DNA of 32,020 nt from the NCBI GenBank assembly GCA_016178075.1, contig JACOUA010000282.1:1-32020 (forward strand), in the 5' to 3' direction. The first letter of the stretch is position 1; the number at the start of each line of letters is the position of its first letter. The translations under genes were made by a program, and so were the position numbers. The stretch comes from Acidobacteriota bacterium. Lineage in GTDB: Bacteria; Acidobacteriota; Vicinamibacteria; Vicinamibacterales; JACQTH01. Below are positions 610 to 19,702 of the stretch, piece by piece. A model generated the notes under the pieces. That model was not told the origin of the DNA. It made no database searches and saw only the letters and a program-made list of their open reading frames with translations.

Positions 610-1869
610 TCAGCGGCTCGCTCCGGTCGTTGGCCGAGCGGCCGATGTGTCACGCCGCGAGAGCAGAAAGGCCGTCAGGTCCGCCGCTTCGCCGCTTTCC
701 AGGCGCGGCCACGGCAGGCCGCGCTTGCGGAGCTCTTCTTCCATCTTCGCGGAGTGGTTCCACATCGCCGCGATGATCGCGATCGGATCGTCGAGCCGCG
801 GCACACCGCCAAGGTCGGGGCCGATGCCCTTGCCGGACCCGATGGAATGGCACGTGGAGCACTTGTCGACGAAGATCTGCGCGCCGCGCGCCGGCGTACC
901 GCGGACGTTCGCGTAGTTGACGAAATACAAGTAGCCGATGATGTCCGCCATCTCCTGTCCGGAGAACGTCACGCGCGGGATGCCCCGGCGCCGGAACTCG
1001 GCGGTCATGCCCTGGCTGTGGTTCCACATCAGGCCGGCGATCGACGCGACCGATCCGACCAGTTCACGGGGCCGGGTGCCCAGATCAGGTCCCCCGCGTC
1101 CGCCTTTGCCGGCGATCGCGTGACACGCGAGGCACCGCTTGTCGCTGAACAACTGACGCCCGCGCCGCGGGCTGCCCGGCTCGAAGTAGACGCGCTCCTC
1201 GCTCGACCCGCCGTTGCCCGCCTGCAAGTACGCGACGAGGTCGCCCATCTCGCGGCCGGTGAACTTCGGCCACTTCAGCCCGAGGCCTTGCATGGCGCTC
1301 GCCATTTCCGGCCCGTGGTTCCACATCGCCTGCGCCAGGAAGATCGCCGAGAAGCGGCCCCGATAGCGCCGGAGATTCGGCCCGGGCTGTTCCCAGGCGT
1401 TCCCGTTGACGCTGTGACAGTGCACGCATCCCTTGCTCGCGAACACCGCGCGGCCGGCGGATGGACTGCCCGGGCCCCCCAGCTCGGTGATGTAGTAGCG
1501 ATAGGCGGTCAGGAGCGCGATGATGTCCGCCATCTCCCCACTTGTCATCGTCGGCGGCTGGATCCGAAGGTCCTGCATCTTCTCGCGCATGGCCGGCGCG
1601 TGGTTCCAGAACGCGCCCGCCAGGTCGAGCACCGTCCCTGAAAAGAGGATCCGGCCGAGGTCCGGACCGACGCGCGGCTCACCGCCTCCGAGCGAGTGAC
1701 AGCGGACGCAGCTTTTCTGGGCGAAGAGCCGCGCGCCGGCCGTGGGGCTGTCAGGGAGCTCCACCGAGAGCAGTACCGACTTCGTCTGCGCGTGGGTCGA
1801 CGAGCCGACTGCCCCCGCGAGGATCGCCGTGAGGACGACGCCGCTCACAATTCCTGGCATCCGTTTCAT
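610..1869 (-). CDS. Tetrahaem c-type cytochrome with four tandem cytochrome c domains
   Basis: The 419-residue protein has an N-terminal export signal (hydrophobic residues about 7-22, then STHAQ) and four haem-binding CxxCH motifs at residues 54, 148, 246 and 337. Each heads a domain of about 95 residues that also has an aromatic-WNH-x3-M motif and an E-[MA]-[AG]-D-[LI] helix, so the gene looks like a fourfold duplication of a monohaem domain. It should be a periplasmic electron carrier. The ATG at 1869 is preferred over an upstream in-frame start because TAGGAGAA stands just before it and the longer version would place an Arg run ahead of the signal. It follows the NrfD gene by 10 bases and is the last gene of the operon, suggesting that it takes electrons from the NrfD complex. 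Confidence 0.88.
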   Translation of the reverse strand: MKRMPGIVSGVVLTAILAGAVGSSTHAQTKSVLLSVELPDSPTAGARLFAQKSCVRCHSLGGGEPRVGPDLGRILFSGTVLDLAGAFWNHAPAMREKMQDLRIQPPTMTSGEMADIIALLTAYRYYITELGGPGSPSAGRAVFASKGCVHCHSVNGNAWEQPGPNLRRYRGRFSAIFLAQAMWNHGPEMASAMQGLGLKWPKFTGREMGDLVAYLQAGNGGSSEERVYFEPGSPRRGRQLFSDKRCLACHAIAGKGGRGGPDLGTRPRELVGSVASIAGLMWNHSQGMTAEFRRRGIPRVTFSGQEMADIIGYLYFVNYANVRGTPARGAQIFVDKCSTCHSIGSGKGIGPDLGGVPRLDDPIAIIAAMWNHSAKMEEELRKRGLPWPRLESGEAADLTAFLLSRRDTSAARPTTGASR

Positions 1870-1879: not shown

Positions 1880-3154
1880 CTACGCCGCCGCCGCCGGCAC
1901 GGCATCGGTCCCCTCCTGTTCCCAGATCGACACGATCGGGAACAGCTTCGTGAACCCCATGTAAAGCAGCGCGAACGCCGCGAAGCATCCTGCCATCAGC
2001 GACCATTCGACCCAGCTCGGGATGTAGACGAAGGTGTGAATGGGCGCGCGCGGATGCGAGAGCGACGGCACCACAATCGTGAACCGCTCGAGCCACATGC
2101 CGATGTTCACAGAGATCGAGGCGACGAGTGTGCCGGTGACGGTTCGTGTTCGGGGGTTCGCGAGGATCGTGAACGGCACGATGAAACAGGCGACGACCAT
2201 CGCCCAGAAATACGGCGCGAACGGGCCGGTCATCTTCGACGTGAAGACAGCCAGCTCGGTCGGTTCCTGTCCGTACCAGGTGGTGAGGTACTCGGCAAAG
2301 GTGAAGTAGAACCAGAGGCAGCACATGACGAGCAGCAGGATGCCCAGATTGTTGAAGTGGATCGGCCGGAGGTACGCCTCGAGCCCGTAGACCCTCCTGA
2401 TGATCACCATGGCGGTGATGATGGCGGCAATCCCCGAGAAGATGGCGCCGACGACGAAGTAGGGGCCGAAGATTGTCGAATGCCACATCGGCTGGATGGT
2501 CATGCCGAAGACCCAGGACACGACGGTGTGGACCGAGACCGCCACCGGGATCACGAGAATCGCCATCACTGAAATGGCCCGCTCGAGCCGCGCCCATTGC
2601 CGCGGCGCGCCGGTCCATCCGACGGCCAGGCGTGTGTAGAGACGCCGGCGCCATCCGGTGGTCCGCTCGCGAAGTATGGCGATGTCGGGAATGAGCGGCA
2701 GGTAGAGATAGATCGAGCTCGCCGTCAGATAGACGCTGATGCTCGCCACGTCCCAAAGCAGCGGCGAGCGAAAATGCGGATGCTTGATCACGTTGAGCGC
2801 CCTGTCAGGCCGTCCGAGATCAAACAGCACATTGCCCACGCCGAAGAACAACACCAGGACCGTGATGACTTCGGCCATCCGCGTGATCGGCCGGCGCCAC
2901 TCGGCATGCACGATCCGGAGGATGGCCGAGATGAGCGTGCCGGCATGCGACACGCCGATGAAGAACACGAAGTTGGTGATGTACAGCCCCCAGTAGATCG
3001 GCCGCCCGAGGCCCGTGACGCCCAGGCCGTGCGTGAGCTGCCACACCCAGGCGAACACGGCCCAGACGACGATCGCCCCGAGGGCGGCGGCCCATCGCCT
3101 GAAGCTCGGGCCGGCCTGCAGGATCGGCGCGACGATCGCCTCGTGCTCGGACAT
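1880..3154 (-). CDS. NrfD/PsrC-family integral membrane quinone-binding subunit (ActC/QrcD-like)
   Basis: This is a 424-residue, strongly hydrophobic protein with about nine or ten membrane helices. Segments such as RPIYWGLYITNFVFFIGVSH and the FNNLGILLLVMCCLWFYFTFAEYLTTWYGQEP region are typical of NrfD/PsrC proteins and of ActC in alternative complex III. These subunits oxidise or reduce quinol at the membrane and exchange electrons with an iron-sulfur partner. The gene starts 3 bases after the ferredoxin stop, and its ribosome site (AAGGAGAG) lies inside the ferredoxin 3' end, so the two are translationally coupled. The neighbours (ferredoxin, Mo-oxidoreductase-like protein, pentahaem cytochrome) match the Act and Qrc complexes. 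The direction of electron flow cannot be read from the sequence. Confidence 0.9.
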   Translation of the reverse strand: MSEHEAIVAPILQAGPSFRRWAAALGAIVVWAVFAWVWQLTHGLGVTGLGRPIYWGLYITNFVFFIGVSHAGTLISAILRIVHAEWRRPITRMAEVITVLVLFFGVGNVLFDLGRPDRALNVIKHPHFRSPLLWDVASISVYLTASSIYLYLPLIPDIAILRERTTGWRRRLYTRLAVGWTGAPRQWARLERAISVMAILVIPVAVSVHTVVSWVFGMTIQPMWHSTIFGPYFVVGAIFSGIAAIITAMVIIRRVYGLEAYLRPIHFNNLGILLLVMCCLWFYFTFAEYLTTWYGQEPTELAVFTSKMTGPFAPYFWAMVVACFIVPFTILANPRTRTVTGTLVASISVNIGMWLERFTIVVPSLSHPRAPIHTFVYIPSWVEWSLMAGCFAAFALLYMGFTKLFPIVSIWEQEGTDAVPAAAA

Positions 3155-3157: not shown

Positions 3158-3835
3158 TCACTCTCCTTCGCGAAGGTAGATCACCTTCGGCTTCGTCCCG
3201 AGCTCTTCCATCAGGCGGAACGCCCGCGGGTTGTTCGCAAGCGCGGCCACGGCGCCGTGCGGATCGTCGAGGTCGCCGAACGTCATCGCTTCGGCGGGGC
3301 AGGTCTGGACGCAGGCCGGCACGTAATCGTCGGGCGCGAGGTCGCGCCCTTCGTCTCGCGCGCGCTCGCGCGCGAGCATCAGCCGATGGTGGCAGAAGGT
3401 GCACTTCTCGACGATGCCCTTGGGACGGAGCGATACGTCCGGGTTCCGCATCTCGGCCATCGCGCCGGGCCACTCGGGCGAGGACCAGTTGAAGACCTTC
3501 ACGCTGTACGGGCACGCGTTCGTGCAGTAACGACAGCCAATGCACCGTGGATACACTTGCGCCACGATGCCCTCGGGGCTCAGATACGTCGCGCTGGTCG
3601 GACACACATCCGTACACGGCGGACGGTCGCAGTGCTGGCACATCAACGGCAACGCGGACGGCCCGACACGTCCCGGCGTTTCCGCGGGCACCAGGTGGAT
3701 CCACGTCAGCAGCCGCCCGTGCGTGGCTTCCGCGGGCGTCGAAAACGGCACGTTGTTCTCGTGCTTACAGGCGACCACGCAGGCCTGGCAGCCGGTGCAG
3801 CGATCGAGGTCGATGACGAGTCCCCAGCGTGGCAT
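3158..3835 (-). CDS. Ferredoxin-like subunit with four [4Fe-4S] clusters (PsrB/QrcC/ActB2 type)
   Basis: The 225-residue protein has the Cys pattern of the DmsB/PsrB/NrfC family: CTGCQACVVAC near residue 16, CQHC-x3-PC-x3-CP, CIGCRYCTNACP, and CTFC paired with a later CVQTCP. That is enough ligands for four [4Fe-4S] clusters. It should wire the Mo-oxidoreductase-like subunit to the NrfD subunit. In alternative complex III the equivalent module is fused to the ActB subunit; here it is a separate gene as in Qrc or polysulfide reductase. It has no signal peptide of its own; such subunits usually ride out with the Tat-exported partner, which is encoded just upstream. A 144-base gap with two hairpins separates it from that partner. 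Confidence 0.9.
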   Translation of the reverse strand: MPRWGLVIDLDRCTGCQACVVACKHENNVPFSTPAEATHGRLLTWIHLVPAETPGRVGPSALPLMCQHCDRPPCTDVCPTSATYLSPEGIVAQVYPRCIGCRYCTNACPYSVKVFNWSSPEWPGAMAEMRNPDVSLRPKGIVEKCTFCHHRLMLARERARDEGRDLAPDDYVPACVQTCPAEAMTFGDLDDPHGAVAALANNPRAFRLMEELGTKPKVIYLREGE

Positions 3836-3979: not shown

Positions 3980-6193
3980 CTACGCACGCGCTACGACGAC
4001 CAGACAGGGTCCGGCCGGATCGGCAAGCGCCACTAGACTCCGGGCGTCGCCTTCGATGACCCGCGCCCATCGTCCCGCACCAGGGACCGACGGCACGGAC
4101 GCGACCGCGACGACGTCGGACAACATCCCCTCGACCAGCACGGCCATGGCTTCGATGGTCGCTACACGCGAGGTGATTCGAATGCGATGTCCGGACTCGA
4201 TGCCGAGACGGGCGGCGGTCTCGGGGTGCAGCTCCGCCCATGGTTGCCACGGCGCAGCATCGGGCTGGCCCAGAAGCTCGTAGATCACTGGCTGATTCGG
4301 GTTGCCCGCGAGGCTGACCACCGCGGGCGTGAACGTGACGAGCCGAAGGGTGGCGCCCTTGCCGAAGCCATCGCGGCCGGCGCCATCCACCGGCTTGATC
4401 TCAATCTTCGCGGGGGGGACGGCTGGAATCGCGACCGGCAGCGCGAAGCGCAGGCCACGACGTTCCCGCAGGCTCTGCTCGATCTGACCGGCCTGGAAGT
4501 ACGGGTCGATCCAGCCGCCGGCCTGCAGGATCCGGTTCGTGAAATCCTCGCGCGACTCGGCGGCGGGGGCCCACCAGCCGCCTCTCTCCAGTTGCTCGAG
4601 CCACTCGGTCTCGTACACCACGCTGTACGGTCCGCCTCGGCGAAGGCGCCACAGTCGATCGATCTCGCCGCGTGCGATGCGTTCGGTCGAGATCGGCTCG
4701 TCGGTGGCCTGCTCAGGCGCGCCGATTCTCCGCGCGATCGATGCAACGAGTGACAGGCGATCGGCGGTGTCGAGCCGGGGCTTTACGGCCGGCATCGCGA
4801 TGCTGCGCGTTTCCGCGGCAACCGCCGGCGCCGGCACGGCGCAGTGCCAACTTTCGAGCGGCGTGTGGGTCGGCAGCAGCAGATCCGCGAACGCGGCGGT
4901 TTCATCCAGATAGGGGGAGAGGCTCACGACGAAGCGCGCGCCCTCGAGCAGGCGCCCGAGATCCGGCGAGGCCGACAGGGTGCGGAACGGGGAAGGATCC
5001 GCGAGCGCCACCACCCGGGGCTTCAGATCGCCGAGCGCCTCCAAAGGTTCGTCCTCGACGCCGCGCCGGTCGATCGACGCCGGTGCGACGAAGACTCCGC
5101 CCGGCCGATCGAAAGCGCCGATCAACGCGTTGAGCGTGAAGACGGCATCGATCAGGCTGTTGTTCGCATCGGCAGCGACGACCACGACGGGACGCGGGCT
5201 GTCCGCGAGGTCGCGCCCCAAGCGCAGGATGGTGACGACGGGAATGCCGGTCGCCGCCGCGACTTGGTCTGGGGTGTAGTGCGGGATCACGTCGCGCTGG
5301 AATTCGCGGAGGTTGCCGCCAAACTCGTCGAGGAGTCCCCGCTGCACGCGGTCTTCGCGCAGCAGCACCGAGGCGATCCCGTACGCCAGGAGCGCCTGAT
5401 GTTCGGGCAGCACGGACAGCCACTCGTCGGCCTTCCTCGCCGTGGCCGATCGCCTCGCATCGATCTGCACGAGCCGGCCGCGTTGTCGCGATGGTCCGCG
5501 ACGGAATCGGCCAAACGCGCGCTGCGCCCACACCGGCGACAGCCACGTTTCGACAATCGGGGCGCCGAACGACAGGACGTGGCTTGCGCGCTCGAGATCG
5601 AACATCGGATCGCCGTTCACGCCGGTGAGCGCCTCGAAGCGCGGGCGGAGGCGAGTGGCCGTGTCGATCGGCGTGCGGAATGTCCGGGCGCCGATCGCGC
5701 GCCAGGCGTCCGACCATGCGTCGGCGGGCGGACCGTCTTCGTCGACGGCCAGCGCGACGAGGCCCGGGCGGCCCGCGGAGACCGATTCGCGGATCTGAGC
5801 CGTCACGAGGTCGAGGGCCTTGGGCCACGGGATCGGTTCCCAGCGTCCTGCACCGCGTTCGCCGACTCGTCTCGCCGGGCCGATCAGGCGATCGGGATCG
5901 AAGTAGGACTCGAGTGACGCCTGACCCTTCGCGCACAGACGGCCGCGGCCAATCGGGCAGAGCGGGCTGCCCTCGAGCTTGACGGGGACACCGCCGATCA
6001 TTCGGGCGCGCAACCCGCAGCTGGCCGGACATTCACGGCAAACGCTCGTCGCCCACACCTCTGATCCGGACGCGTGCACAACAGCCGGTGTGGTGGAGGC
6101 GAGCCACTGTCGTCCGAGCTGTCCCAGTGTCACGCCGGTCAGGGCGGCGCCGCTGTACGACAAGAACTCACGCCTGGTGACGGGTTCAGGCAT
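3980..6193 (-). CDS. Tat-exported molybdopterin-oxidoreductase-like subunit without visible Mo ligand (ActB1/QrcB-like)
   Basis: The 737-residue protein opens with a twin-arginine signal (TRREFL at residues 6-11). A [4Fe-4S] site follows: Cys52, Cys55, Cys59 and Cys87, the last in GRGRLCAKGQ. The body has the domain order of the DMSO-reductase superfamily, with FDLERASHVLSFGAPIVETW around 198-217 and a C-terminal molydopterin-dinucleotide-binding-like domain. The catalytic Cys/SeCys expected upstream of the FGA block is absent: there is no Cys from residue 88 to beyond 220. ActB1 of alternative complex III and QrcB likewise lack the cofactor and act as structural or electron-relay subunits, and the neighbours support that assignment. 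The ATG at 6193 overlaps the previous stop as TGATG, so it is chosen over a GTG 12 bases upstream. An active enzyme with an unusual ligand is not excluded. Confidence 0.85.
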   Translation of the reverse strand: MPEPVTRREFLSYSGAALTGVTLGQLGRQWLASTTPAVVHASGSEVWATSVCRECPASCGLRARMIGGVPVKLEGSPLCPIGRGRLCAKGQASLESYFDPDRLIGPARRVGERGAGRWEPIPWPKALDLVTAQIRESVSAGRPGLVALAVDEDGPPADAWSDAWRAIGARTFRTPIDTATRLRPRFEALTGVNGDPMFDLERASHVLSFGAPIVETWLSPVWAQRAFGRFRRGPSRQRGRLVQIDARRSATARKADEWLSVLPEHQALLAYGIASVLLREDRVQRGLLDEFGGNLREFQRDVIPHYTPDQVAAATGIPVVTILRLGRDLADSPRPVVVVAADANNSLIDAVFTLNALIGAFDRPGGVFVAPASIDRRGVEDEPLEALGDLKPRVVALADPSPFRTLSASPDLGRLLEGARFVVSLSPYLDETAAFADLLLPTHTPLESWHCAVPAPAVAAETRSIAMPAVKPRLDTADRLSLVASIARRIGAPEQATDEPISTERIARGEIDRLWRLRRGGPYSVVYETEWLEQLERGGWWAPAAESREDFTNRILQAGGWIDPYFQAGQIEQSLRERRGLRFALPVAIPAVPPAKIEIKPVDGAGRDGFGKGATLRLVTFTPAVVSLAGNPNQPVIYELLGQPDAAPWQPWAELHPETAARLGIESGHRIRITSRVATIEAMAVLVEGMLSDVVAVASVPSVPGAGRWARVIEGDARSLVALADPAGPCLVVVARA

Positions 6194-6720
6194 CAGCGAT
6201 GACACGCCACGCAGTCTTCCGTGGCGCCCTCAGTCTTGTGGCACGAGAGGCAGGCGTTCATGTCGAGACGCACCGGCGCGGAAGTGAGCGCGTCCCGCCG
6301 TGCGCGCATGTCGCCGTGACACGACGCGCAATCGAGCTTCGCGGACGTGACGTGCCGGCGGTGGGAGAACATCACGTGGTCCGGCAGCCGTGTGACCCGG
6401 ACCCACGCCGGGCGCGCTCTGCGCGCCAGCTCGTCCCATGTCGGTTTTTGGCCGTCCGACCCGGGGAGCGCCGGCCCCGCGCTCAGCACGACCTCCACTG
6501 GGCGAGGCGGCGTTGCGTGACAGTTCAGGCACGCGGCCACTTCCGGAATCCCAGCGCGGGCCGAGCGCTCGGCGCCGCGATGGCACGCGACGCAGGTCAC
6601 TTCGGTGTGCTTCGCGTGATCGAACGGGATCGGTTGATCGACTGCGGCCGGCGGGAGCAGGACCACCCAAATCGCCGCTGAGATCGCCGCGACCGCCGTC
6701 AGAAGAAGCGCGCGCGCCAT
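6193..6720 (-). CDS. Pentahaem class III-like cytochrome c (ActA/QrcA-like)
   Basis: The 175-residue protein has an N-terminal hydrophobic segment (about residues 4-22) serving as anchor or signal and five CxxCH motifs at 43, 64, 131, 157 and 170. Extra His residues in FDHAKH and MFSHRRH are likely second axial ligands, as in cytochrome c7/c3. ActA of alternative complex III is also pentahaem, whereas QrcA, as I recall it, carries six haems, which favours the Act comparison. It should take electrons from the iron-sulfur arm of the complex on the periplasmic side. GGAG stands about 5 bases before the ATG. Its stop overlaps the start of the Mo-oxidoreductase-like gene, indicating coupled translation and a shared complex. 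Confidence 0.87.
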   Translation of the reverse strand: MARALLLTAVAAISAAIWVVLLPPAAVDQPIPFDHAKHTEVTCVACHRGAERSARAGIPEVAACLNCHATPPRPVEVVLSAGPALPGSDGQKPTWDELARRARPAWVRVTRLPDHVMFSHRRHVTSAKLDCASCHGDMRARRDALTSAPVRLDMNACLSCHKTEGATEDCVACHR

Positions 6721-6734: not shown

Positions 6735-6756
6735 GGGCCGACCCGAAGGTCGGCCC
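6735..6756 (-). other. Perfect hairpin with a UUCG tetraloop just behind a cytochrome stop codon
   Basis: On the transcribed (minus) strand the sequence reads GGGCCGACC, TTCG, GGTCGGCCC: a 9-bp perfect stem closed by a C(UUCG)G tetraloop, one of the most stable RNA caps known. It abuts the stop codon of the upstream monohaem cytochrome (6756-6758) and lies 15 bases before the pentahaem start. With no T tract and five further co-directional genes, it is more likely an RNA-processing or stability element than a terminator. Confidence 0.65.
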
Positions 6757-7151
6757 TACTTAGCATTGGTCTCGGCCAGTTTCTTGTCGTAGAGCGCCCT
6801 CTTGCGAATCTTCGAGTCATAGGTCACGAACTCGAAGATCTGCTTGCCCTCGTCCGGCGTGATGAAGGATCCGGCTTTCCGCATCATCCGCTTGACGTAG
6901 CGCTCCCACTCGTCGTCGACCGCGAACTCGCAGTTGATGGCGCGCGCCAGCGTGTGGCACTTCGCGCATTTCGTCGCAAACTGCTTGTAGGCTTTCTGCA
7001 TCTCGGCCGGATACTTCGAGACATTGATCTTGTCGGGCCCCTTGTCGTAGGTAAGGATACGGGGATCGATCGGCTCATCCTGTGCGACCACGATCACGGT
7101 GCCGGCGAGGGCTGCGACCGCAAGTGCGAGTATCACGATCTGTTTGTTCAT
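6756..7151 (-). CDS. Small monohaem c-type cytochrome
   Basis: The 131-residue protein has a clear signal peptide (MNKQIVILALAVAALAG, cleaved near VVAQ) and one haem site, CAKCH, at about residues 62-66. The conserved-looking tail WERYVKRMMRKAGSFITPDEGKQIFEF resembles small cytochromes in other multihaem clusters and contains two candidate Met ligands. It should be a soluble periplasmic shuttle between the NrfD complex and the outer-membrane conduit. The start is firm: AGGAGG lies 5 bases before the ATG. It is the second gene of the operon beginning at 7680. The substrate redox partner cannot be named from sequence. Confidence 0.82.
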   Translation of the reverse strand: MNKQIVILALAVAALAGTVIVVAQDEPIDPRILTYDKGPDKINVSKYPAEMQKAYKQFATKCAKCHTLARAINCEFAVDDEWERYVKRMMRKAGSFITPDEGKQIFEFVTYDSKIRKRALYDKKLAETNAK

Positions 7152-7230: not shown

Positions 7231-7680
7231 TCAGCGCCATTTCTCACCCGCTGACTTTGGATACAGGCTTTTCAGGTACTGCACGAGGTCATCGACCTCG
7301 CGATCCGTCATCTGGGCCCGCCAGCCGGGCATTCGGTAGGGAGGACGAGGTCCCTTCGCGTCCGCCTTCCCGACCGTTGGCGTGCCGTCGAGCAGGCGCT
7401 GGCGAAGCTCCCGGTCCGTGTATCCCTCGGCCACATAGATAACAGCCGGCACCTTGCCGTCCGTTTCAGCGTTTTGGTTTGGAAATCCCCCCTTGCCGTC
7501 GACGCCGTGACATGTGGCGCAGCCGTAGCGTCGGTACACCAGCCGGCCGCGCTCGACGGCGTTCGACGGGGCGTCGCCGGCGGTGAGACGCACGCCGTTC
7601 GGCAGGGGCGGCGTTTGGATCCGGGCGACCACGACCCCGACCCCTGCAACGAGCAGTACGACTACGAGCGCACGCTTCAT
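7231..7680 (-). CDS. Monohaem cytochrome c, first gene of the redox operon
   Basis: The 149-residue protein begins with a signal/anchor (MKRALVVVLLVAGVGVVVA) and has one CxxCH site (CATCHGVDGKGG) in a class I cytochrome c domain. A likely distal Met lies in PYRMPGWRAQM, and the domain ends in the usual DLVQYLKSLYP helix. It may remain membrane-anchored, as no strong cleavage site is evident. Longer in-frame versions would put a charged stretch ahead of the signal, so the ATG at 7680 is chosen although it has no Shine-Dalgarno sequence. The predicted promoter at 7687-7740 places transcription start at or next to this ATG, which would make the mRNA leaderless. Confidence 0.8.
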   Translation of the reverse strand: MKRALVVVLLVAGVGVVVARIQTPPLPNGVRLTAGDAPSNAVERGRLVYRRYGCATCHGVDGKGGFPNQNAETDGKVPAVIYVAEGYTDRELRQRLLDGTPTVGKADAKGPRPPYRMPGWRAQMTDREVDDLVQYLKSLYPKSAGEKWR

Positions 7681-7686: not shown

Positions 7687-7740
7687 ATGATGCAAGTCGT
7701 GGATGACGGGCGGATGAACTTCCGGTGAAAACCCGTTCAT
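7687..7740 (-). promoter_or_regulatory. Predicted regulated promoter: three 11-bp direct repeats plus -10
   Basis: On the plus strand ATGAC (7703), ATGAA (7714) and GTGAA (7725) recur at exactly 11 bp, followed by TTCAT at 7736. Ten bases from the nearest repeat, on the minus strand, is CATCAT (7692-7687), a 4/6 match to the -10 consensus. The layout is identical, base for base in spacing, to 11179-11232. One-turn direct repeats overlapping the -35 region are characteristic of OmpR/PhoB-family activators, and such a regulator is encoded at 12656-13342. Confidence 0.6.
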
Positions 7741-7815
7741 TTTCCGGCCGCCGGGCAGCCGGCCCCACTGCCGTCAGGCCACGCCGACGTGCCGGCAGGC
7801 TGAGATGAATGAGGC

Positions 7816-7839
7816 GGGAAGGGCGCCAGCGCCCTTCCC
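7816..7839 (-). terminator. Hairpin behind the outer-membrane porin gene
   Basis: Perfect 11-bp arms, GGGAAGGGCGC (7816-7826) and GCGCCCTTCCC (7829-7839), lie 9 bases beyond the porin stop codon on the minus strand and before the next operon's promoter. That position fits a transcription terminator, but the following bases are only weakly T-rich, so Rho help or an RNA-stabilising role is possible. Confidence 0.6.
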
Positions 7840-7848
7840 GTGGCGATG

Positions 7849-10005
7849 TCAGAAGAAGTACAGGATGCGGAAGAACCCTGTGTTGCCTTTGTAGGGCCGG
7901 TTTCCGTAGCCAGTGCTGATCTCACCGAGGTAGTCGATCCGCGGCGTGCCCGGCTGGCCGGGGACATCGACTGTCGCGTAGTCGCTGATGTCGAACTTCT
8001 CGTACCAGTAGCCGAGGCCGACGCCGACCTTGGCCGCAAACATGTACTTGAGATCCACCATGAAGCGCTGCCACTTGTTCGTGATGGCCGGCAGCGGCTC
8101 GAAGCAGGACGTGAGCCCCGCTGCGCACGGGGAAGGAATCGTGAACCCGGGGTACAGGATGGCCGAGGGGCCGGACAGCGCCTTGTTCGTGGACAGCTCC
8201 TGAATTCGCGGACCACTATGGATGTACGCGTTGTTCGAGTCGCTGTAGTCATAGCTCACGCTGATGTCGGTCTTCTCGATCGCCTTGATCAAGTCGAGGT
8301 AGATGGTCGCGATGTTGACCTTCTCGTCGTTGTTCAGGAACCAGTTTCGGTTCGGGTCGAACCAGGTGCCATAGTCGGTGCCGGCGGGACTCGCGTTTCG
8401 CGACGCCTGGTTGCTGACGTACTGGTCGCGGCCGTAGTTCGCCCCCACCCGCACGCTCGGCATCGGGCTCGCGTTGATCCCGAAGTTGTAGACAGTGTTC
8501 TTGTTGTCCATCAGACCGAACTCGCGGCCCGGCCCCCCAAACGTGTCCCTGCCGGCGGCCACCGCGAAGCTGAGATCGAGAAGCGACACCGGGGTCACGG
8601 TGAACGCCATCCAGCCTCGGTCCCGAACGCGATCCGCAATGTCGTACGTCCGCAGGCCCGGTTGAAATCCGGCTTCCTCGAGAAGCTCCACGGACAAGCC
8701 CGTGCCGACTCGCTCCGAGTGCTCATAGATCAGCCGCACCATGAGGTACTGGTTCCCTACGGTGTCGACCGTCGTGCGGAAGGTGTAGTCCGTCGAACCA
8801 CTGAGTTCCCGGCTCGTCCGCTTGAAGTCATCGAGGGTGTAGCCGAGCCTGATGGATGTTCTCGACGTCACGTTGAACAATCCGTTCACGTCGAGCGTGT
8901 TCTGTCTAATGTTGAACGGTTCGGTCTCGCCACCGGTCTCCTCGGGTACCGCGTCCAACCGGACGTACTCCCTCGCGTCGAACGTCGGCGTCCGGTTCTG
9001 GCGATCGTTGTAGCGGTACCTCATGGTCAGCCCAAAGAAGCGAGTGGGCCGCGTGGTGTAGTTGACGAGCGCGTTGACACCCCGCACCTCCGCTTCGGCG
9101 GTGTTGCGCGGAAGGCTCGCAAGGCCGGGAAAATTCTTGTACACGGCCGGGCTGGCGATCACCGCATTGCTCGTCCACGGGATGAGCGTGTCGTTCTGTC
9201 TCATCGTCGTGAAGGAGAGCTGGGCATTCACGGCACTGTGCGCCGGCATCTTGTACAGACCGATGGCGCTCACGGTGTTGAGGTTGTTGCTTGGCGGCAC
9301 CGACATGCGGCTCCGCGCGGCGCCGCGGCCGTTGCTGTACCCGCTGAAGTCGATCGGGCTCGTATCGGTCGCCCTGACGGGGTTGTCGAACAGCAGCTCG
9401 TGGATGTTGTTGTGAAACCAGGACCCGTCCCACGCGACGCGGACCATCCCCTCAGGCTTGGTCCATTCCGCGGCCGCCGAAAAGTCGTTCGTCCGGTTGT
9501 CGAGCGGGACCGGCAACTGGTCGGCGACGCTGAACCCAAACGACGCGCCTTTGGGCTCGTGCCCGTTTCTGGCCGTCGAGTTGAACGAAAAGTTGAACGT
9601 CAGGTCCTTGCTGGAGGCAAACGACGCGGTGAGGCCGGCCACATCACGGCGCGCCTGGATGTCGAACGGTTTCGCCAGGCTTCGGTAGATTGATCCGGTC
9701 GCGAGCTGCGCCACGTTGCCCGGCACACCGACGACACCGGGGGTGTTGTTCTGGACGAGGAGCCGGGTGGCGGACTCGGGAGTCTCCTTGCCGAACACGA
9801 TTCGGGAAAGAGCGCCGTCCCGCAGGTCGCGGAAGCGCTCGAATCGTGCCTTGTCGCCATCGACCGTAGACACCCGCCCGCCGAATTCCATGGACCCAAT
9901 AGTGACGGTCGGCGCGTGGGGCGCCGCGGGGGGCTGCTGTCCCATGGCGACGCCCGCGGAGGCCACCACGAGCACGGCCGTCGCAATCGTCAGTCTGTTG
10001 CACAT
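7849..10005 (-). CDS. MtrB/PioB-family outer-membrane beta-barrel of a porin-cytochrome conduit
   Basis: The 718-residue protein has a signal peptide (MCNRLTIATAVLVVASAGVAMGQ) and then alternating beta-strand segments through to a C-terminal Phe (RILYFF), the usual signal for outer-membrane insertion. The N-terminal block FGGRVSTVDGDKARFERFRDLRDG is characteristic of MtrB/PioB/DmsF proteins, which sheath a decahaem cytochrome and let electrons cross the outer membrane. The decahaem gene lies directly upstream (10141-11103). The ATG at 10005 is chosen since AAGGAG is 7 bases before it; an ATG at 10011 is too close to that site. The CxxC near the N terminus of Shewanella MtrB is not seen; the mature chain's visible Cys pair is in SPCAAGLTSC. 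No outer-surface MtrC/OmcA-type cytochrome gene is present. Confidence 0.87.
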   Translation of the reverse strand: MCNRLTIATAVLVVASAGVAMGQQPPAAPHAPTVTIGSMEFGGRVSTVDGDKARFERFRDLRDGALSRIVFGKETPESATRLLVQNNTPGVVGVPGNVAQLATGSIYRSLAKPFDIQARRDVAGLTASFASSKDLTFNFSFNSTARNGHEPKGASFGFSVADQLPVPLDNRTNDFSAAAEWTKPEGMVRVAWDGSWFHNNIHELLFDNPVRATDTSPIDFSGYSNGRGAARSRMSVPPSNNLNTVSAIGLYKMPAHSAVNAQLSFTTMRQNDTLIPWTSNAVIASPAVYKNFPGLASLPRNTAEAEVRGVNALVNYTTRPTRFFGLTMRYRYNDRQNRTPTFDAREYVRLDAVPEETGGETEPFNIRQNTLDVNGLFNVTSRTSIRLGYTLDDFKRTSRELSGSTDYTFRTTVDTVGNQYLMVRLIYEHSERVGTGLSVELLEEAGFQPGLRTYDIADRVRDRGWMAFTVTPVSLLDLSFAVAAGRDTFGGPGREFGLMDNKNTVYNFGINASPMPSVRVGANYGRDQYVSNQASRNASPAGTDYGTWFDPNRNWFLNNDEKVNIATIYLDLIKAIEKTDISVSYDYSDSNNAYIHSGPRIQELSTNKALSGPSAILYPGFTIPSPCAAGLTSCFEPLPAITNKWQRFMVDLKYMFAAKVGVGLGYWYEKFDISDYATVDVPGQPGTPRIDYLGEISTGYGNRPYKGNTGFFRILYFF

Positions 10006-10019
10006 CGCCATTCTCCTTG

Positions 10020-10141
10020 TAACGAAGCTCCGCTTCGTTACTAGATCCGCGGCCGCTCGCGCGGCCGCGGCTAAGCCGTGGTTGCACGGCGACATTTGAC
10101 AGGTTTGTGCCACATTCATCTCCACGCCGTGCAAGCACGGC
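10020..10141. other. Cluster of four hairpins between decahaem and porin genes
   Basis: Four inverted repeats fill this gap: TAACGAAGC/GCTTCGTTA (10020-10040), CCGCGGCCGC/GCGGCCGCGG (10047-10056 and 10061-10070), GCCGTG/CACGGC at 10075-10090, and the same 6-bp arms at 10126-10141. The last overlaps the decahaem stop codon. The final two are near-identical copies in opposite orientation (15 of 16 bases), so they can also pair with each other. The two flanking genes probably form one transcript, with this cluster setting their relative expression; that role is inferred. Confidence 0.5.
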
Positions 10142-11103
10142 TAGCGGTGGAAGTACTTGCCAGACGGCGCGTTGGAGCCATGGATCTGCACGTGGCACAC
10201 CACGCAGCCGGATCCAATCAGCCTGTTGGCGCTGGCGGAGGTCCTCAGCGTGAAGCCCTCGTACACGGTTGGAGGATGTCGCGACGTCACATGGCACCGC
10301 TGACAGAGGAACGGCACCTTAGCGACGAGTAGCCGCTCGTTGTTCGATCCGTGCGGCTCGTGGCATGTCACGCAGGCATTCGCGACCGGCGCGTGCTCCC
10401 AGAGGTACGGCCCGCGCTTCTCGGCGTGGCAGCTCGTGCAGGCTTCGTTGACCGTCGTTCCCGCCTTGAGCAGCTTGACGTTGGGGGATCCGTGCGGGTT
10501 GTGACATGACGAGCACACCAGGCTGCCCTCGCGGACCGGCATGTGGTTGAAGCGGGAAATCTTGTTCACGACATTGCGATGGCAAGTGGAGCACAGCTCC
10601 GGCTGCGTTGTCGCCTTGATCTGCTTCTCGCCCTTGGGGCTGTGCACGCTGTGACACGTCGGGCAGCCGACATTTCGCTGGTCGTGCTGGCTCCCCGTCC
10701 AGAGTGCGTGTGTGCCGCGGTCGTGGCAAGTCGCGCAGATCTCACTTGCCTCACGCGGAGCCATGCCAGTCGTGCTGAACCGCCTGATCTTCGTCTTGTC
10801 GCCGACGTCGTCGAGATGCCCCTTGCCCGGTCCGTGGCACGTTTCGCAACCCTGCGCCGCGGCCGGACTACGTTCGAGAGAGGAGCGGCCATGCGGTGTG
10901 GCTTTGTACGCGTTGGTCTGCGCTTCGTGGCAGCTCGTGCACTTTTCCTGGCCAACGTACTCCCCGGCGGCTTGCTGGGACGACGCCTTTGCTGCGGACC
11001 CGGCCGGGGCGGAGTTGCTCGACGCCGACCCCGTCTGGACGAGCCACACCAGGGCAATCCCGGCGACGAGAACCCGGAGGACGGTCTTGCCGAATGACTG
11101 CAT
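10141..11103 (-). CDS. Decahaem c-type cytochrome, MtrA/DmsE/PioA family
   Basis: The 320-residue protein has a signal peptide (hydrophobic residues about 8-22) and exactly ten CxxCH motifs: CTSCH, CETCH, CATCH, CPTCH, CSTCH, CSSCH, CTSCH, CVTCH, CQRCH and CVVCH. Length and haem number match MtrA and DmsE. These proteins sit inside an MtrB-type barrel as a haem wire, and the barrel is the next gene. Typical second ligands are seen in NPHGS and EPHGS. GGAGAA stands 5 bases before the ATG at 11103. The gene heads a two-gene operon with its own promoter (11179-11232) and a structured leader. PioA works in Fe(II) oxidation and MtrA in mineral reduction, so the direction of flow is undecided. Confidence 0.92.
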   Translation of the reverse strand: MQSFGKTVLRVLVAGIALVWLVQTGSASSNSAPAGSAAKASSQQAAGEYVGQEKCTSCHEAQTNAYKATPHGRSSLERSPAAAQGCETCHGPGKGHLDDVGDKTKIRRFSTTGMAPREASEICATCHDRGTHALWTGSQHDQRNVGCPTCHSVHSPKGEKQIKATTQPELCSTCHRNVVNKISRFNHMPVREGSLVCSSCHNPHGSPNVKLLKAGTTVNEACTSCHAEKRGPYLWEHAPVANACVTCHEPHGSNNERLLVAKVPFLCQRCHVTSRHPPTVYEGFTLRTSASANRLIGSGCVVCHVQIHGSNAPSGKYFHR

Positions 11104-11126
11104 GGCGTTCTCCGTGCTTTTATGGA

Positions 11127-11166
11127 GGATGGCTTGGCGACCGCACGCGTCCGGTCGCGGCCATCC
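11127..11166 (-). promoter_or_regulatory. Leader hairpin of the decahaem cytochrome mRNA
   Basis: Arms GGATGGC (11127-11133)/GCCATCC (11160-11166) and GCGACCG (11137-11143)/CGGTCGC (11152-11158) stack into a 14-bp stem with a small internal loop and an 8-base apical loop. It occupies the predicted 5' leader of about 70 bases and ends 15 bases before the Shine-Dalgarno sequence. It may protect the mRNA or act as a regulatory element; no known riboswitch class is recognised. Confidence 0.5.
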
Positions 11167-11178
11167 CGCTTCGAGGCG

Positions 11179-11232
11179 ATACTAGGTATTCAGTATGAAA
11201 ATTTGATGAAAGTCCGCTGAACGAACGTTCAT
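11179..11232 (-). promoter_or_regulatory. Predicted promoter of the decahaem-porin operon with three 11-bp direct repeats
   Basis: On the plus strand ATGAA (11195), ATGAA (11206) and CTGAA (11217) are spaced exactly 11 bp, and TTCAT follows at 11228. On the minus strand TAGTAT (11184-11179) is a -10-like hexamer 10 bases from the first repeat, which puts transcription start near 11172. Repeats, TTCAT and hexamer align without a gap with 7687-7740. Binding by the regulator encoded at 12656-13342 is an inference from its family and adjacency. Confidence 0.62.
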
Positions 11233-11250: not shown

Positions 11251-12690
11251 TCAGGCGTTCCCGGGTGTGTTGCCCGACTTCGAGACGAGGGGAAGCGAGA
11301 GCGTGAAGGTCGAACCCTGGTCGAGGGCGCTCGTGACAGTGATGGAACCGCCGTGCACGCGGGCGATCTGGTCGGCGATCGTCAGACCCAGGCCGGTGCC
11401 GCCGGTGTCCCGGGCCCGTGCCGGGTCGGCCCGGTAGAACGGCTCGAAGATGTGGGGAAGGTCGTCGGCCCCGATACCGCAGCCATGATCCTGAATGCCG
11501 AGGACGGCGCGGCCGTCGAGCGTCCGGATCGAGACGCAGACGGACGAGTCAGGTCTCGAGTAGCGGATGGCGTTCTGCGCCAGGTTGAGCACGAGACGGC
11601 GAAGGTGCAGCGCGCTGCCCGAAACGACCGGACGATCGCGGACATCGACGGTCACGGCGACCTGCTTCTCTTCAGCGATCGCCTGCGCGATCTCGCAGCA
11701 CTCGCCCGCGAGCGCCGCCAGATCGATCGGGACCGGGGGCTCGAGAAGGTGGCCCGCTTCGGCGAGCGCGAGCAGCCGGAGATCACGCACGAGATCGGAC
11801 AATCGTTCGATCTCTATCAGAAGATCAGCGGCAACGCGCGGGTAGTCGGCCCCTCGCCCCCCGTTTCGAAGGCCAGCCTCGATGACCCCTCGCATCGCCG
11901 CAATCGGCGTCTGCAGCTCGTGCGAGGCGTCGGCCGCGAATCGGCGGGCGCTCCGCATCGAGACTTCGATGCGGTCGAGCATCTGGTTGAGCATCGACAC
12001 GAGCCGATCGAGCTCGTCGCTGCCGGCTTGGATGTCGAGCCGATCGCCGAGGCGGCTGGCCTGGATCCGCCGCACGCGATCGACGATGGCGTCGACCGGC
12101 GCGAGCGCACGACGAGCCGTCACGCCGCTGCCATAGCTCGCCATGATGAGGACGATGCTGATGGAGGCCAGCATCGCGAGCGCGAGCTGCCACAGCGTCT
12201 GCCGCGCCGGCAGTGTCGAGGCGGCCACTTGGAGGACGATCCCTTCGGTTCCAGGGCGGCCGATCGCCACGCTGGCCATCCTCAAGGGAACGCCTCCCCG
12301 GCCGACGACGCCGACGATCGATCGATGATCCCGAATGGCGGTGGTCAACGTGCGTTCGCCGGCCCAGTCGAGCGTGGGGAAGGCGGGCGATCGAAACAGC
12401 AGGGTGTCCGGAGATTCCCAGACCGTCAGCGGGGCTTCAACCGCGCGCGGCTCGGCGGCGAGACGCTCACCGACATCCAGCGCGAGCAGCGACGTGCGCA
12501 GGTCGCCCGCGAGCTGATGGGCCCGCACCTCGAGGTCGGCGTCGAGCTCTCGATACAACGTGCGCGCGCGAATCAGAAGGACGAAGGAGCCGAACAGGAC
12601 CAGCGTCGTCCCCAGCGTGAGGAGGTACCAGAATGTGAGGCGGGCCCGAACGCTGCTAAGTCGCAGCCGTCGCTGGATCGCGGAGAACAT
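11251..12690 (-). CDS. Membrane sensor histidine kinase (CusS/QseC-like)
   Basis: The 479-residue protein has two membrane helices (about 20-41 and 167-187) bracketing a periplasmic sensor region of about 125 residues. A HAMP segment follows, then a HisKA domain with phospho-acceptor His257 in ASHELQTP, and a HATPase domain with N (NLAQNAIRYS), G1 (DHGCGIG), F (FEPFYR) and G2 (GTGLGL) boxes. The sensor region has no recognisable fold by eye and no CxxCH. Its 5' end overlaps the response-regulator gene by 35 bases, so the two form an operon. Homologues of this class often sense metals or envelope redox stress; the location beside the conduit genes suggests it controls them. Confidence 0.93.
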   Translation of the reverse strand: MFSAIQRRLRLSSVRARLTFWYLLTLGTTLVLFGSFVLLIRARTLYRELDADLEVRAHQLAGDLRTSLLALDVGERLAAEPRAVEAPLTVWESPDTLLFRSPAFPTLDWAGERTLTTAIRDHRSIVGVVGRGGVPLRMASVAIGRPGTEGIVLQVAASTLPARQTLWQLALAMLASISIVLIMASYGSGVTARRALAPVDAIVDRVRRIQASRLGDRLDIQAGSDELDRLVSMLNQMLDRIEVSMRSARRFAADASHELQTPIAAMRGVIEAGLRNGGRGADYPRVAADLLIEIERLSDLVRDLRLLALAEAGHLLEPPVPIDLAALAGECCEIAQAIAEEKQVAVTVDVRDRPVVSGSALHLRRLVLNLAQNAIRYSRPDSSVCVSIRTLDGRAVLGIQDHGCGIGADDLPHIFEPFYRADPARARDTGGTGLGLTIADQIARVHGGSITVTSALDQGSTFTLSLPLVSKSGNTPGNA

Positions 12691-13342
12691 AGCCCACCCC
12701 GCGCACCGCCTGGATGAAGCTCTGGCGGCCAGGCTCGTCGATCTTACCGCGCAGATGCTTCACGTAGACGTCGACGACGTTGCTGGCGTGATCGAAGGTA
12801 AAGTCCCAGACGTGCTCGGCAATCATGCTGCGGGTCAGCACATAGCCGGACCGTCGCATCAGGTATTCGAGCAGCGCGTACTCCTTTTGCGTCAGACTCA
12901 CCGCACGACCGGCCTGCCGCACCACTCGGGTCGCGGGATCGAGCTCGAGGGCGCCGACCGTCAGGGTCGGTATCTCAGTACGCTGATGGCGCCGCTGCAG
13001 CGCGCGGAGACGGGCCGTCAGCTCCGCAACCGCAAACGGTTTGATCAGGTAGTCGTCCGCGCCCGCGTCGAGGCCGCGCACGCGATCCTCGACCATGTCA
13101 CGGGCGGAGAGGATCAAAACGGGCACTTGCCGGCCCGCTTCCCGCAACCGGCGACAGAGCGCGAGGCCGTCCAGACGCGGGAGCATCAGGTCGAGCACCA
13201 CACCGTCGTAATCGTACGTTTGCGCGAGCTCCAGCCCCCGGGCTCCGTCGTGCGCGAGATCGACGGCAAACCCCTCCTCGATCAGCGCCTGGCTGATGTA
13301 GAGCGCCATCCGATGCTCGTCTTCGACGACCAGGATGCGCAT
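12656..13342 (-). CDS. OmpR/PhoB-family response regulator
   Basis: The 228-residue protein has a receiver domain with acidic pocket (VVEDE at 5-9), phospho-acceptor Asp51 (VVLDLMLP) and the conserved Lys in LIKPF. A C-terminal winged helix follows (LTQKEYALLEYLMRRSGYVLTR, then VDVYVKHLRGKID and VRGVGYVL), typical of OmpR-type activators that bind direct repeats as head-to-tail dimers. It is co-transcribed with the sensor kinase downstream. The 11-bp direct repeats at 7703 and 11195 are well-suited targets and lie before the only two cytochrome operons here. The stretch upstream of its own start shows no copy of that repeat, so autoregulation through it is not supported. Confidence 0.95.
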   Translation of the reverse strand: MRILVVEDEHRMALYISQALIEEGFAVDLAHDGARGLELAQTYDYDGVVLDLMLPRLDGLALCRRLREAGRQVPVLILSARDMVEDRVRGLDAGADDYLIKPFAVAELTARLRALQRRHQRTEIPTLTVGALELDPATRVVRQAGRAVSLTQKEYALLEYLMRRSGYVLTRSMIAEHVWDFTFDHASNVVDVYVKHLRGKIDEPGRQSFIQAVRGVGYVLRDPATAAT

Positions 13343-14674: not shown

Positions 14675-14800
14675 GCGGCCTCGCTGCCGGAATTCCGGCA
14701 CCGGGCCGGCCGTTCTCAATCCGGATTCCTGAAAGTCGCCCAAAACCAAACGTTTGTGAAGATCGCCGGCAGTGGCACCGCGGTTGCGACCTGCCGGGCC

Positions 14801-16195
14801 ATGCGGGCCACCGCTGTCGCCTCGATCACGGCCGACCTGCTTCGGATGTACGACAAGGCAGGTCCTCGGTACACGTCGTATCCGACAGCTGTTGAATTCA
14901 GCGACTCGTTTACGGCGGACGCCTATGGTGCGAAGCTCGATGAGGCGGCGACGCTCGACTCCGAGCCGCTCTCGCTCTACCTGCACCTGCCGTTCTGCGA
15001 AGAGCGCTGCACGTTTTGCGGCTGCGCGGTGATTGCCACGCGCCGCCGCGAGGTGGTCTCGCGGTACCTGGATTATCTCCTGCGCGAGATCGGGATGCTC
15101 GCCGATCGCTTGGGTCACCGCCGGCGAGTCATCCAGTATCACTGGGGTGGCGGCACGCCGACCTACCTCACCTCGGCCGAGTTGACGGCGCTCCACGCCG
15201 GCGTGCAGCGTCATTTTGGAATCGATCCGCAGGCCGAGGGCGGCGTCGAGGTCGATCCGCGCGTCACGACACGCGAGCAGATCGACACGCTGCGCGCGCT
15301 GGGATTCAATCGCCTCTCGATGGGCGTCCAGGACTTCACGCCGGAGGTGCAGGAGGCCATCGGTCGCCGCCAGAGCGCGGCCGCGACCCGGTCGCTCTTC
15401 TACGACGCCCGCGGCGCCGGGTTCCACTCGATCAACGTCGACCTCGTGTACGGATTGCCGCGTCAGCGACTGGAAACATTCAGCCGCACGATTGAATCGG
15501 TGGTCGAGATGCGCCCGGAGCGGGTCGCGGTCTACTCGTACGCGCACGTGCCGTGGCTGCGAGCGAACCAGAAGAAGATCGAGCCTCGCGATCTGCCCTC
15601 GCCGGAGCTGAAGCTCGACCTGTTCGGCGCCGCGGTCGACGTGTTCCTGGACGCGGGCTACCGCCAGATTGGGATGGACCATTTCGCGCGCCCGGATGAC
15701 GAGTTGGCCCGCGCGGCCGAGCGGGGCGCTCTCCACCGGAACTTCATGGGGTACACGACCAGGCTGGCGACCGACATGGTGGCGGCGGGCCTCACCGCGA
15801 TCGGCGACATCCGCGGCGCGTATGCGCAGAATGTGAAGAAGCTGTCGTCCTATTACGCGGCCCTCGATGCCGGACGGTTTCCGATCGAGCGCGGCTTGCC
15901 GCTGACGCGGGACGATCTGCTCAGGCGCTTCGTCATCACGCAGCTCATGTGCAATTTCACGGTTGACCTTGCCGAGGTCGAGCGCCGCTTCGGGGTGTCG
16001 GTCGAGGATTACTTTGCGCGGGAGCTGATCGCGCTGGCCTCAGGTCCCGCGGCGCACGGGTTCGTGACGATGAGACCGGATCGCTTGCAGGTGACGGTGC
16101 GAGGCCGGTTGTTCGTCAGGAACATCTGCATGGTGTTCGACCACTATCTGCGGCAGAAGCCAGTGGAGCAGCGGATGTTTTCCCGAACGATTTGA
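14801..16195 (+). CDS. hemN: Oxygen-independent coproporphyrinogen III dehydrogenase (radical SAM)
   Basis: HemN converts coproporphyrinogen III to protoporphyrinogen IX with S-adenosylmethionine and a [4Fe-4S] cluster, without oxygen, in the cytosol. The cluster motif CEERCTFCGC gives Cys66, Cys70 and Cys73 plus the extra Cys75 that marks true HemN. Also present are the N-terminal GPRYTSYPTAVEF block, YHWGGGTPTYL, EVDPR, NRLSMGVQDF, GFHSINVDLVYGLP and, at the C terminus, GRLFVRNICMVFD. The 464-residue length fits the family. The ATG at 14801 gives the usual spacing of about 20 residues to GPRYTSYPT; a GTG at 14756 would add 15 residues and neither has a good ribosome site. It is the first gene of a haem operon. 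Confidence 0.95.
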   Translation: MRATAVASITADLLRMYDKAGPRYTSYPTAVEFSDSFTADAYGAKLDEAATLDSEPLSLYLHLPFCEERCTFCGCAVIATRRREVVSRYLDYLLREIGMLADRLGHRRRVIQYHWGGGTPTYLTSAELTALHAGVQRHFGIDPQAEGGVEVDPRVTTREQIDTLRALGFNRLSMGVQDFTPEVQEAIGRRQSAAATRSLFYDARGAGFHSINVDLVYGLPRQRLETFSRTIESVVEMRPERVAVYSYAHVPWLRANQKKIEPRDLPSPELKLDLFGAAVDVFLDAGYRQIGMDHFARPDDELARAAERGALHRNFMGYTTRLATDMVAAGLTAIGDIRGAYAQNVKKLSSYYAALDAGRFPIERGLPLTRDDLLRRFVITQLMCNFTVDLAEVERRFGVSVEDYFARELIALASGPAAHGFVTMRPDRLQVTVRGRLFVRNICMVFDHYLRQKPVEQRMFSRTI

Positions 16196-16218
16196 CGAGG
16201 CCCAAGCCCAAAGCCAAC

Positions 16219-17244
16219 ATGAATCCAATGACCGCCGTCCTGCTGTACAACCTCGGCGGCCCCACGACGCTCGACGAGGTCGAGCCGTTTCTGACGGAGC
16301 TGTTCTCCGATCGCGACATCATCGCGCTGCCCGCCGGCGCGATGATTCAGCCCGCGTTCGGCCGGGCGCTCGCGAAGTGGCGGGCGCCGTCGGTGCGCGA
16401 GAACTACCGGCGCATCGGCGGTGGGTCGCCGATTCGAGCGTCGACGGCCGGCCAGGCCAGGCTGCTGGAGACCCGGCTGAACGCAGGCCGCGGGACCCGC
16501 GCGGGATCATTCAGGGTGTTCGTGTCGATGCGCTACCTGAAGCCGAGCATCGGCGATGCGCTCCGCAAGATCCGAGCCGAAGGCATCACCCGTATCGTCA
16601 CCCTGTCCCTGTTTCCGCACTGGTCACACGCCACGACGGGCTCGTGGAGGCACGAGCTGGAGCGGGTGCTCCAATCGTCCGAGTGGCGGGATGCAGGCTT
16701 CGACGTCACCGACATCGATCGATATCCTGCAGAGCCTTTCTATCTCGATGCCCTCGCCGATACGGTACGGCACGCGCTCGATCGGTTCTCGCCGGCCGTT
16801 CGATCGGATGCGGTGATTCTCTTCAGCGCGCACGGCTTGCCCCAGGCGCTCGTGGATCGTGGCGATCCCTACGTGACGGACATCGAAGCCACGCGGTCCG
16901 GCGTGTGGGAGCGCCTGCGGGTTTCCAACCGGCAGCTCCTCGGCTACCAGTCGCGGGTGGGTCCGGTGCGGTGGATCGGCCCCGGCACCGACGAGTTGAT
17001 CGACCGGCTGGGCCAGGAGGGCGTGAAACACCTCCTCATCGTGCCCCTCTCCTTCGTGTCCGATCACATCGAGACGCTGTACGAGATCGATCTCCTGTTC
17101 GCGGAACGGGCCAAGCGCGCCGGCATTCGTGAATGCCTTCGGAGCGAGGCGCTGAACGGTCATCCTGGGTTCATCGAGGCGCTGGGGCAGCTCGTCGAGC
17201 GGCACCTGGCGGCTGCGGGCGAGCCCGTGCGAGTGTTTGCATGA
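16219..17244 (+). CDS. hemH: Ferrochelatase
   Basis: HemH inserts Fe2+ into protoporphyrin IX to make haem b. Family signatures are all visible: VLLYNLGGPTTLDEVEPFL at the N terminus, YRRIGGGSPI, RYLKPSIGDAL, the active-site loop LSLFPHWSHATTGS with its conserved His, ILFSAHGLPQALVDRGDPY, and FVSDHIETLYEIDLLFAERA with the catalytic His-Glu pair. At 341 residues it has normal length. The ATG at 16219 is used, although a TTG overlapping the hemN stop would also be in frame; a GAGG is 19 bases upstream of the ATG. It overlaps the next gene by 4 bases (ATGA), showing tight coupling in haem synthesis. Confidence 0.95.
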   Translation: MNPMTAVLLYNLGGPTTLDEVEPFLTELFSDRDIIALPAGAMIQPAFGRALAKWRAPSVRENYRRIGGGSPIRASTAGQARLLETRLNAGRGTRAGSFRVFVSMRYLKPSIGDALRKIRAEGITRIVTLSLFPHWSHATTGSWRHELERVLQSSEWRDAGFDVTDIDRYPAEPFYLDALADTVRHALDRFSPAVRSDAVILFSAHGLPQALVDRGDPYVTDIEATRSGVWERLRVSNRQLLGYQSRVGPVRWIGPGTDELIDRLGQEGVKHLLIVPLSFVSDHIETLYEIDLLFAERAKRAGIRECLRSEALNGHPGFIEALGQLVERHLAAAGEPVRVFA

Positions 17245-19675: not shown

Positions 19676-19702
19676 GATGTGATCATCAGGCATCACGCAT
19701 CA
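19675..19702 (-). promoter_or_regulatory. Probable vapBC operator
   Basis: The palindrome TGATG-TGAT-CATCA (19675-19688) overlaps the vapB start codon, and CATCA recurs every 7 bp on the plus strand at 19684, 19691 and 19698. Ribbon-helix-helix antitoxins bind such repeated short boxes cooperatively. A clear Shine-Dalgarno sequence is missing, so initiation may also depend on this region. Confidence 0.5.

Follow-up and report, generated by a model that had tools for sequence, protein, structure and literature searches.

The window is a 32,020-nt stretch of an Acidobacteriota genome and carries cytochrome genes and a two-component system on its minus strand. A monohaem c-type cytochrome (7231..7680; Pfam Cytochrom_C, 1.3e-11) has its start codon at 7680-7678. 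Probable members of the same operon, all on the minus strand, are a small conserved cytochrome-like protein with one CXXCH (6756..7151), a pentahaem cytochrome c7/QrcA-like protein (6193..6720), a molybdopterin-oxidoreductase-like subunit of QrcB-like type (3980..6205), a QrcC-like iron-sulfur subunit (3158..3835; QrcC model 3.5e-81, below the equivalog cut-off), and an NrfD-type membrane subunit (1880..3154). A four-haem cytochrome c is encoded at 610..1869 (minus). The 6756..7151 protein is without a Pfam or NCBIfam family match and has an orthologue in 12 of 162 genomes of the order.

The outer-membrane conduit is composed of a DmsE-family decahaem cytochrome (10141..11103, minus; TIGR03508, 255.6 bits, above the cut-off) and an MtrB/PioB-family outer-membrane barrel (7849..10134, minus; PF11854, 3.4e-69), the true start of which is uncertain. 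Known conduits of the Mtr/DmsE type likewise pair a decahaem cytochrome (DmsE/MtrA-like) with a barrel of the MtrB/PioB family; in the window, a Qrc-like quinone-linked complex accompanies the pair.

Upstream of the conduit genes are a sensor histidine kinase of the heavy-metal-sensor type (11251..12690, minus; best model TIGR01386, below the cut-off) and a response regulator (12656..13342, minus), the proposed binder of both operators described below. The regulator possesses a Response_reg receiver domain (PF00072, 1.3e-29) and a Trans_reg_C winged helix (PF00486, 1.7e-25) and belongs to the OmpR/PhoB family, as the first-pass annotation of this DNA had stated for the adjacent system. Its best NCBIfam model is that of the CusR/CzcR/CopR heavy-metal regulators (TIGR01387), at 256.5 bits against a cut-off of 279.2. 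Placement within the family is therefore loose, with the heavy-metal subfamily best-scoring yet below its cut-off. No link to metal efflux or resistance was found among the neighbours of the regulator and the genes behind its sites, which are cytochrome operons and TonB-receptor-like genes, and no conserved Cys/His/Met metal-ligand cluster was seen in the sensor domain of the kinase. Near the cytochrome cluster, on the opposite strand, are haem biosynthesis genes for an oxygen-independent HemN, a ferrochelatase, and a protoporphyrinogen oxidase (14756-18767, plus); no operator was detected ahead of them.

Two similar sites had been reported in front of the cytochrome operons, and their positions, -10 hexamers, and common shift are all exact on direct reading. 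On the plus strand, site 1 contains ATGAC (7703-7707), ATGAA (7714-7718), GTGAA (7725-7729), and TTCAT (7736-7740). Site 2 contains ATGAA (11195-11199), ATGAA (11206-11210), CTGAA (11217-11221), and TTCAT (11228-11232). The offset is 3492 bp for each element. The minus-strand -10-like hexamers are CATCAT (7692-7687) and TAGTAT (11184-11179), each 10 nt downstream of its operator; taken alone, CATCAT makes a weak -10. In the direction of the genes, both sites read ATGAA-N6-TTCAS-N6-TTCAT-N6-KTCAT-N10-(-10). The earlier description as three direct repeats and a following TTCAT is right about the 11-bp phase, but the plus-strand TTCAT is an inverted half-site. Each array thus consists of four half-sites in a common 11-bp phase, of which one (ATGAA) is inverted and three are direct. 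Members of the OmpR/PhoB family characteristically bind half-sites that are roughly one helical turn apart.

Operator 1 (7703..7740, minus; ATGAAC-GGGT-TTTCAC-CGGAAG-TTCATC-CGCCC-GTCAT) is located in the gap between the barrel gene and the monohaem cytochrome gene. Operator 2 (11195..11232, minus; ATGAAC-GTTC-GTTCAG-CGGACT-TTCATC-AAATT-TTCAT) is located in the gap between the kinase gene and the DmsE gene. All four flanking genes are on the minus strand, and the operators do stand, as claimed, before minus-strand cytochrome operons: the monohaem-cytochrome operon for operator 1 and the DmsE/MtrB conduit for operator 2.

By themselves, the two window sites are mildly improbable, at about 1% by shuffling, and the decisive evidence is comparative. 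A pattern fitted to them finds 2 matches in the window with up to 3 mismatches, versus 0.01 per window shuffle, a figure that is circular because the pattern was fitted to these same sites. An unfitted test, which compares the best 38-bp match between both regions with Markov shuffles, gives 25 of 38 identical positions and p ~0.011. The flanks of the sites are only 24-26% identical, i.e., at the random level.

Specificity in the full genome of the window (4.96 Mb, 457 contigs, 87% complete) was assessed by pattern searches. The exact pattern occurs only at the two window places, and 3 mismatches add one further poor match. A pattern of the three direct half-sites and the -10 with 1 mismatch allowed returns only the two sites, and its reversed control returns 0. 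The motif is not frequent genome-wide; had it been frequent, this would have counted against the regulon first suggested. Matches in G521, in G382, and in C188 of the window's genome either depart from the consensus or fall short of the threshold set for a position weight matrix (PWM), and are treated as chance. No site above 14 bits is present in the window besides the two operators, including any that would point to autoregulation of the regulator gene.

The array is conserved in related genomes, in orthologous promoters. A relaxed pattern finds 13 matches in 7 of 149 relatives and 0 control matches. Nearly all of these carry CGGA between two half-sites, though CGGA was absent from the query. 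Across 162 genomes of the order, one scan gives 18 matches versus 0 for the reversed-pattern control; a second, with the inverted half-site dropped and the -10 added, gives 22 versus 0. The sites counted are the order-wide matches minus those in G027, where the contig carries a paralogous regulator (56% identical), and in G161, where a single off-consensus match is treated as chance. The array consensus, TTMAC-CGGA-YT-TTCAT-N7-TCAT-N10-cATAGT, is then found at 21 places, spread over several families of the order and 7 of the 162 genomes; an inverted half-site, ATGAA, usually lies 6 bp upstream of it.

In an alignment of 13 sites, TT.A, CGGA, TTCA, and TCAT are invariant, as are the second A and the sixth T of the -10. 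These two -10 letters are kept in 13 of 13 sites at a fixed N10 spacing, though the search patterns behind those sites did not include them. Columns at the expected place of a -35 hold almost no information. A leave-one-genome-out PWM scores the sites at 46-72 bits (operator 1, 47 bits; operator 2, 50 bits), against at most 6.6 bits in 30 shuffled windows; the most diverged of the 21, G125 C50, scores 34.7 bits. Of all parts of the array, the distal inverted half-site varies most: G053, one of the G093 sites, and G125 C72 and C50 either lack it or have a degenerate form, and in G038 it is altered.

Seventeen of the 21 sites stand before cytochrome operons, six of them headed by monohaem cytochromes, and 4 stand before TonB-receptor-like proteins. 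The DmsE/MtrB conduits behind sites are of two unlike types, and the second MtrB is only ~21% identical to that of the window. Homologues of the window's four-haem cytochrome have their own operator copy in G038, G093, and G125. A site also precedes the 6756-type small gene in G125 and a monohaem porin-like gene in G093. The TonB-receptor-like outer-membrane proteins, which have carboxypeptidase-regulatory domains, are found at G093 C77 and at G125 C28, C72, and C50, where the C72 assignment was made by eye only. Several sites are distant from the regulator: on other contigs in G038 (four-haem cytochrome), G093, and G125, and ~22 kb away in G053. In G125 (L016:13832-13891), two divergent cytochrome operons have a common palindromic middle, GGTGAAGAATCCTTCACC, and each has its own direct half-sites and -10; one inverted repeat thus serves two arrays. 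The first-pass annotation had spoken of a small regulon for the electron conduit. This fits the window's genome, where only two sites occur and both precede cytochrome operons, but the regulon of relatives is wider, with other conduits, the four-haem cytochrome, and TonB-receptor-like proteins among its targets.

Just upstream of the 6756-type gene, some relatives encode a protein of 400-520 aa with one CXXCH, e.g., L015:13948-15414 in G093; it is similarly placed in L019, L187, and L189. In other clusters, this place is empty or taken by a DmsE/MtrB pair. The copies tested are without a Pfam family match. The protein could be a fused monohaem porin.

The assignment of the sites to the regulator draws on proximity and co-occurrence. 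An orthologue of the regulator (67-78% identity, with the next tier no higher than 60%) is present in only 9 of the 162 genomes, and all 7 site-bearing genomes are among these carriers. The remaining two carriers, G013 and G149, yielded no site; their relevant promoters fall at the end of a contig or within an N gap. The array therefore tracks the adjacent OmpR-type regulator as proposed (Fisher p = 6e-10 with the chance match in G161 counted against, a value that overstates independence because the genomes are related). Possession of a conduit is not enough: of the 67 genomes that encode an MtrB relative, 60 are without the regulator, and an on-consensus site occurs in none of the 60. Even close DmsE and MtrB orthologues, at up to 77% and 66% identity (the values in G034), show no site when the regulator is not nearby. 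The recognition-helix stretch NVVDVYxKHLR is kept in 8 of 8 aligned orthologues; most paralogues have N in place of K.

From the sequence comparisons, the two sites are very probably operators of one small regulon of the adjacent kinase and OmpR/PhoB-type regulator (11251-13342), with class II activation as the proposed mode. The activated regulator would bind head-to-tail along the three direct half-sites, at about -47, -36, and -25 from the predicted transcription start, and a further subunit would often occupy the inverted half-site at about -58 (positions computed with the -10 hexamer set at -12 to -7). The proximal subunits would stand in for the missing -35 and bring sigma-70 RNA polymerase to the -10. 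The geometry expected of class II promoters is seen in the fixed N10, the invariant A2 and T6, and the near absence of information at -35. Operator 2 would drive the outer-membrane conduit of DmsE cytochrome and MtrB barrel, and operator 1 the monohaem cytochrome and the Qrc-like complex. The "wire" of the outer membrane and the electron machinery that matches it in the inner membrane thus appear to be switched on together, presumably in response to a redox- or metal-related signal.

At each of the six monohaem-cytochrome promoters, 6-7 nt separate the -10 from the start codon (6 nt in the window). Leaderless genes have been recognized by a -10 box about 6-9 nt ahead of the start codon (PMC3160421), and the monohaem-cytochrome mRNA is accordingly predicted to be leaderless, beginning at the start codon. 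Leaders are present at the four-haem cytochrome genes and at the window's DmsE gene, the start codon of which is 75 nt after the -10. The leaderless geometry at operator 1 favors a gene start at 7680; an ORF caller that chooses 7740 would hide the operator inside the gene.

An alternative reading takes the conserved DNA as coding, with SPDFH and its neighbours forming the N-terminal peptide of an extended cytochrome gene that starts at 7740. In the window, G032, and G125, this frame is indeed uninterrupted from the site's first ATG/GTG onward into the gene. Many sites have TTAACC, however, which is a stop in that frame and refutes the SPDFH peptide; the site also stands before several unrelated proteins and non-coding leaders, and a signal-peptide-like start is present at 7680. 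There is next to no chance that the coding explanation holds. The same can be said of a duplicated promoter segment or coincidence as the source of the likeness between the two window sites. The p of about 0.01 from two sites alone would leave room for either. Identity in the flanks is at the random level, which speaks against a duplicated segment, and the retention of the array in relatives refutes both.

Arrays of similar layout occur beside other regulators. In the close relative G516 (C91:1301-1343; L222:1501-1543), TTCAC-N6-TTCAT-N6-TTCAT follows the gene of another OmpR-type regulator (39.7% identical). This 3 x 11-bp TTCAY array, which starts at about base 1301 of the locus, stands before a multicopper-oxidase-like gene and has a different spacer. 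TTCA-N7 repeats alone do not, then, identify a regulator. Specificity would be given by CGGA together with the full array, and the half-site letters are common to other regulators. A phylum-wide scan of 396 genomes returns a few weak matches beside other OmpR-type regulators (control, 1 match), taken as no more than hints that related arrays serve related regulators. These are at L067:8039-10586 (G242) and L068:2535-7084 (G226), where the regulators are 51-53% identical and weak arrays of the same layout are nearby. Their presence in distant members of the phylum suggests that the layout is older than the conduit regulon.

The G516 array lends some weight to the idea that the operators are real and are bound by another regulator, either a paralogous OmpR-type or a PhoB-like phosphate regulator, with the adjacent pair as a bystander. 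The PHO boxes of PhoB/PhoP are also built of 11-nt direct repeat units, with a TTCAC-like core in Streptomyces (GTTCACC in S. coelicolor; PMC4415409). This idea is improbable, given that the site tracks the orthologue of the adjacent regulator over 162 genomes and that the only two sites of the window's genome adjoin that regulator. A Pho regulon was rejected: one half-site is inverted here, no site was found before an identified phosphate gene, and the regulator scores 178.4 bits against the NCBIfam PhoB equivalog cut-off of 296.2. It is just as doubtful that the adjacent regulator represses these promoters, or activates some and represses others. OmpR-family regulators are capable of both, e.g., CzcR and MtrA (cited in PMC7380067), and the operator overlaps the -35 region, a place that repressors use too. 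The lack of a conserved -35 and the rigid -10 spacing are instead what is expected of an activator that touches the polymerase.

For activation by the adjacent regulator, the best-matched precedent is AgrR of Cupriavidus metallidurans. AgrR is a type II activator that contacts G-58, G-47, and G-35 in a box made up of an inverted repeat and an in-phase direct repeat (PMC7380067). Like the regulators of the AgrR and CopR/PcoR boxes, the one here is an OmpR-family member of the metal-responsive type, and the operator shares with the AgrR box a 6-4-6 inverted repeat (here ATGAAC-N4-KTTMAC) plus an in-phase direct half-site. The hexamer there is ATTACA/TGTAAT, whereas the half-site here is TTCAT. 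Here, moreover, the distal inverted half-site is variable, the core consists of three direct half-sites with CGGA conserved between two of them, and the targets are electron-conduit cytochromes rather than metal-resistance genes.

An OmpR-family regulon is of a known kind; as an electron-conduit regulon in Acidobacteriota, no earlier description was found in the literature searched, nor was any of a dedicated OmpR-type pair for an Mtr/DmsE-type conduit in this phylum. The portion of an mtrCAB cluster survey considered here covers a different Acidobacteriia group and names no dedicated regulator (PMC8805035). Little is known of how bacteria beyond the Shewanella and Geobacter models decide on conduit building. 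It is conceivable, though this is a tentative proposal, that one unchanged regulon takes on different wires. One operator type would be placed on interchangeable conduits (two unlike DmsE/MtrB pairs and the monohaem porin-like protein) and on TonB-receptor-like proteins, and the kinase would sense an acceptor or donor of electrons outside the cell, which might be a metal. If true, a dedicated two-component system governs extracellular electron transfer in an uncultured group of Acidobacteriota.

The genomes compared are metagenome-assembled and come from uncultured organisms. The operator offers a sequence tag for finding the regulon in metagenomes, and it ties anonymous genes, i.e., those for the 6756-7151 protein and the monohaem porin-like and TonB-receptor-like proteins, to the conduit. 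With a candidate regulator and promoters named, tests are feasible in a laboratory host and do not require the organism itself in culture.

Other genes of the window include PIN-domain genes at 16-384 (plus) and 18999-19696 (minus). The latter has a small antitoxin-like ORF ahead of it and is probably part of a VapBC-type pair. Genes for a luciferase-like monooxygenase, an amino-acid adenylation enzyme, a carrier protein, and an acetyltransferase-like protein (24767-28884, plus) make up a small uncharacterised biosynthetic cluster. A spore coat protein U (SCPU) domain protein is encoded at 29405-30094 (plus).
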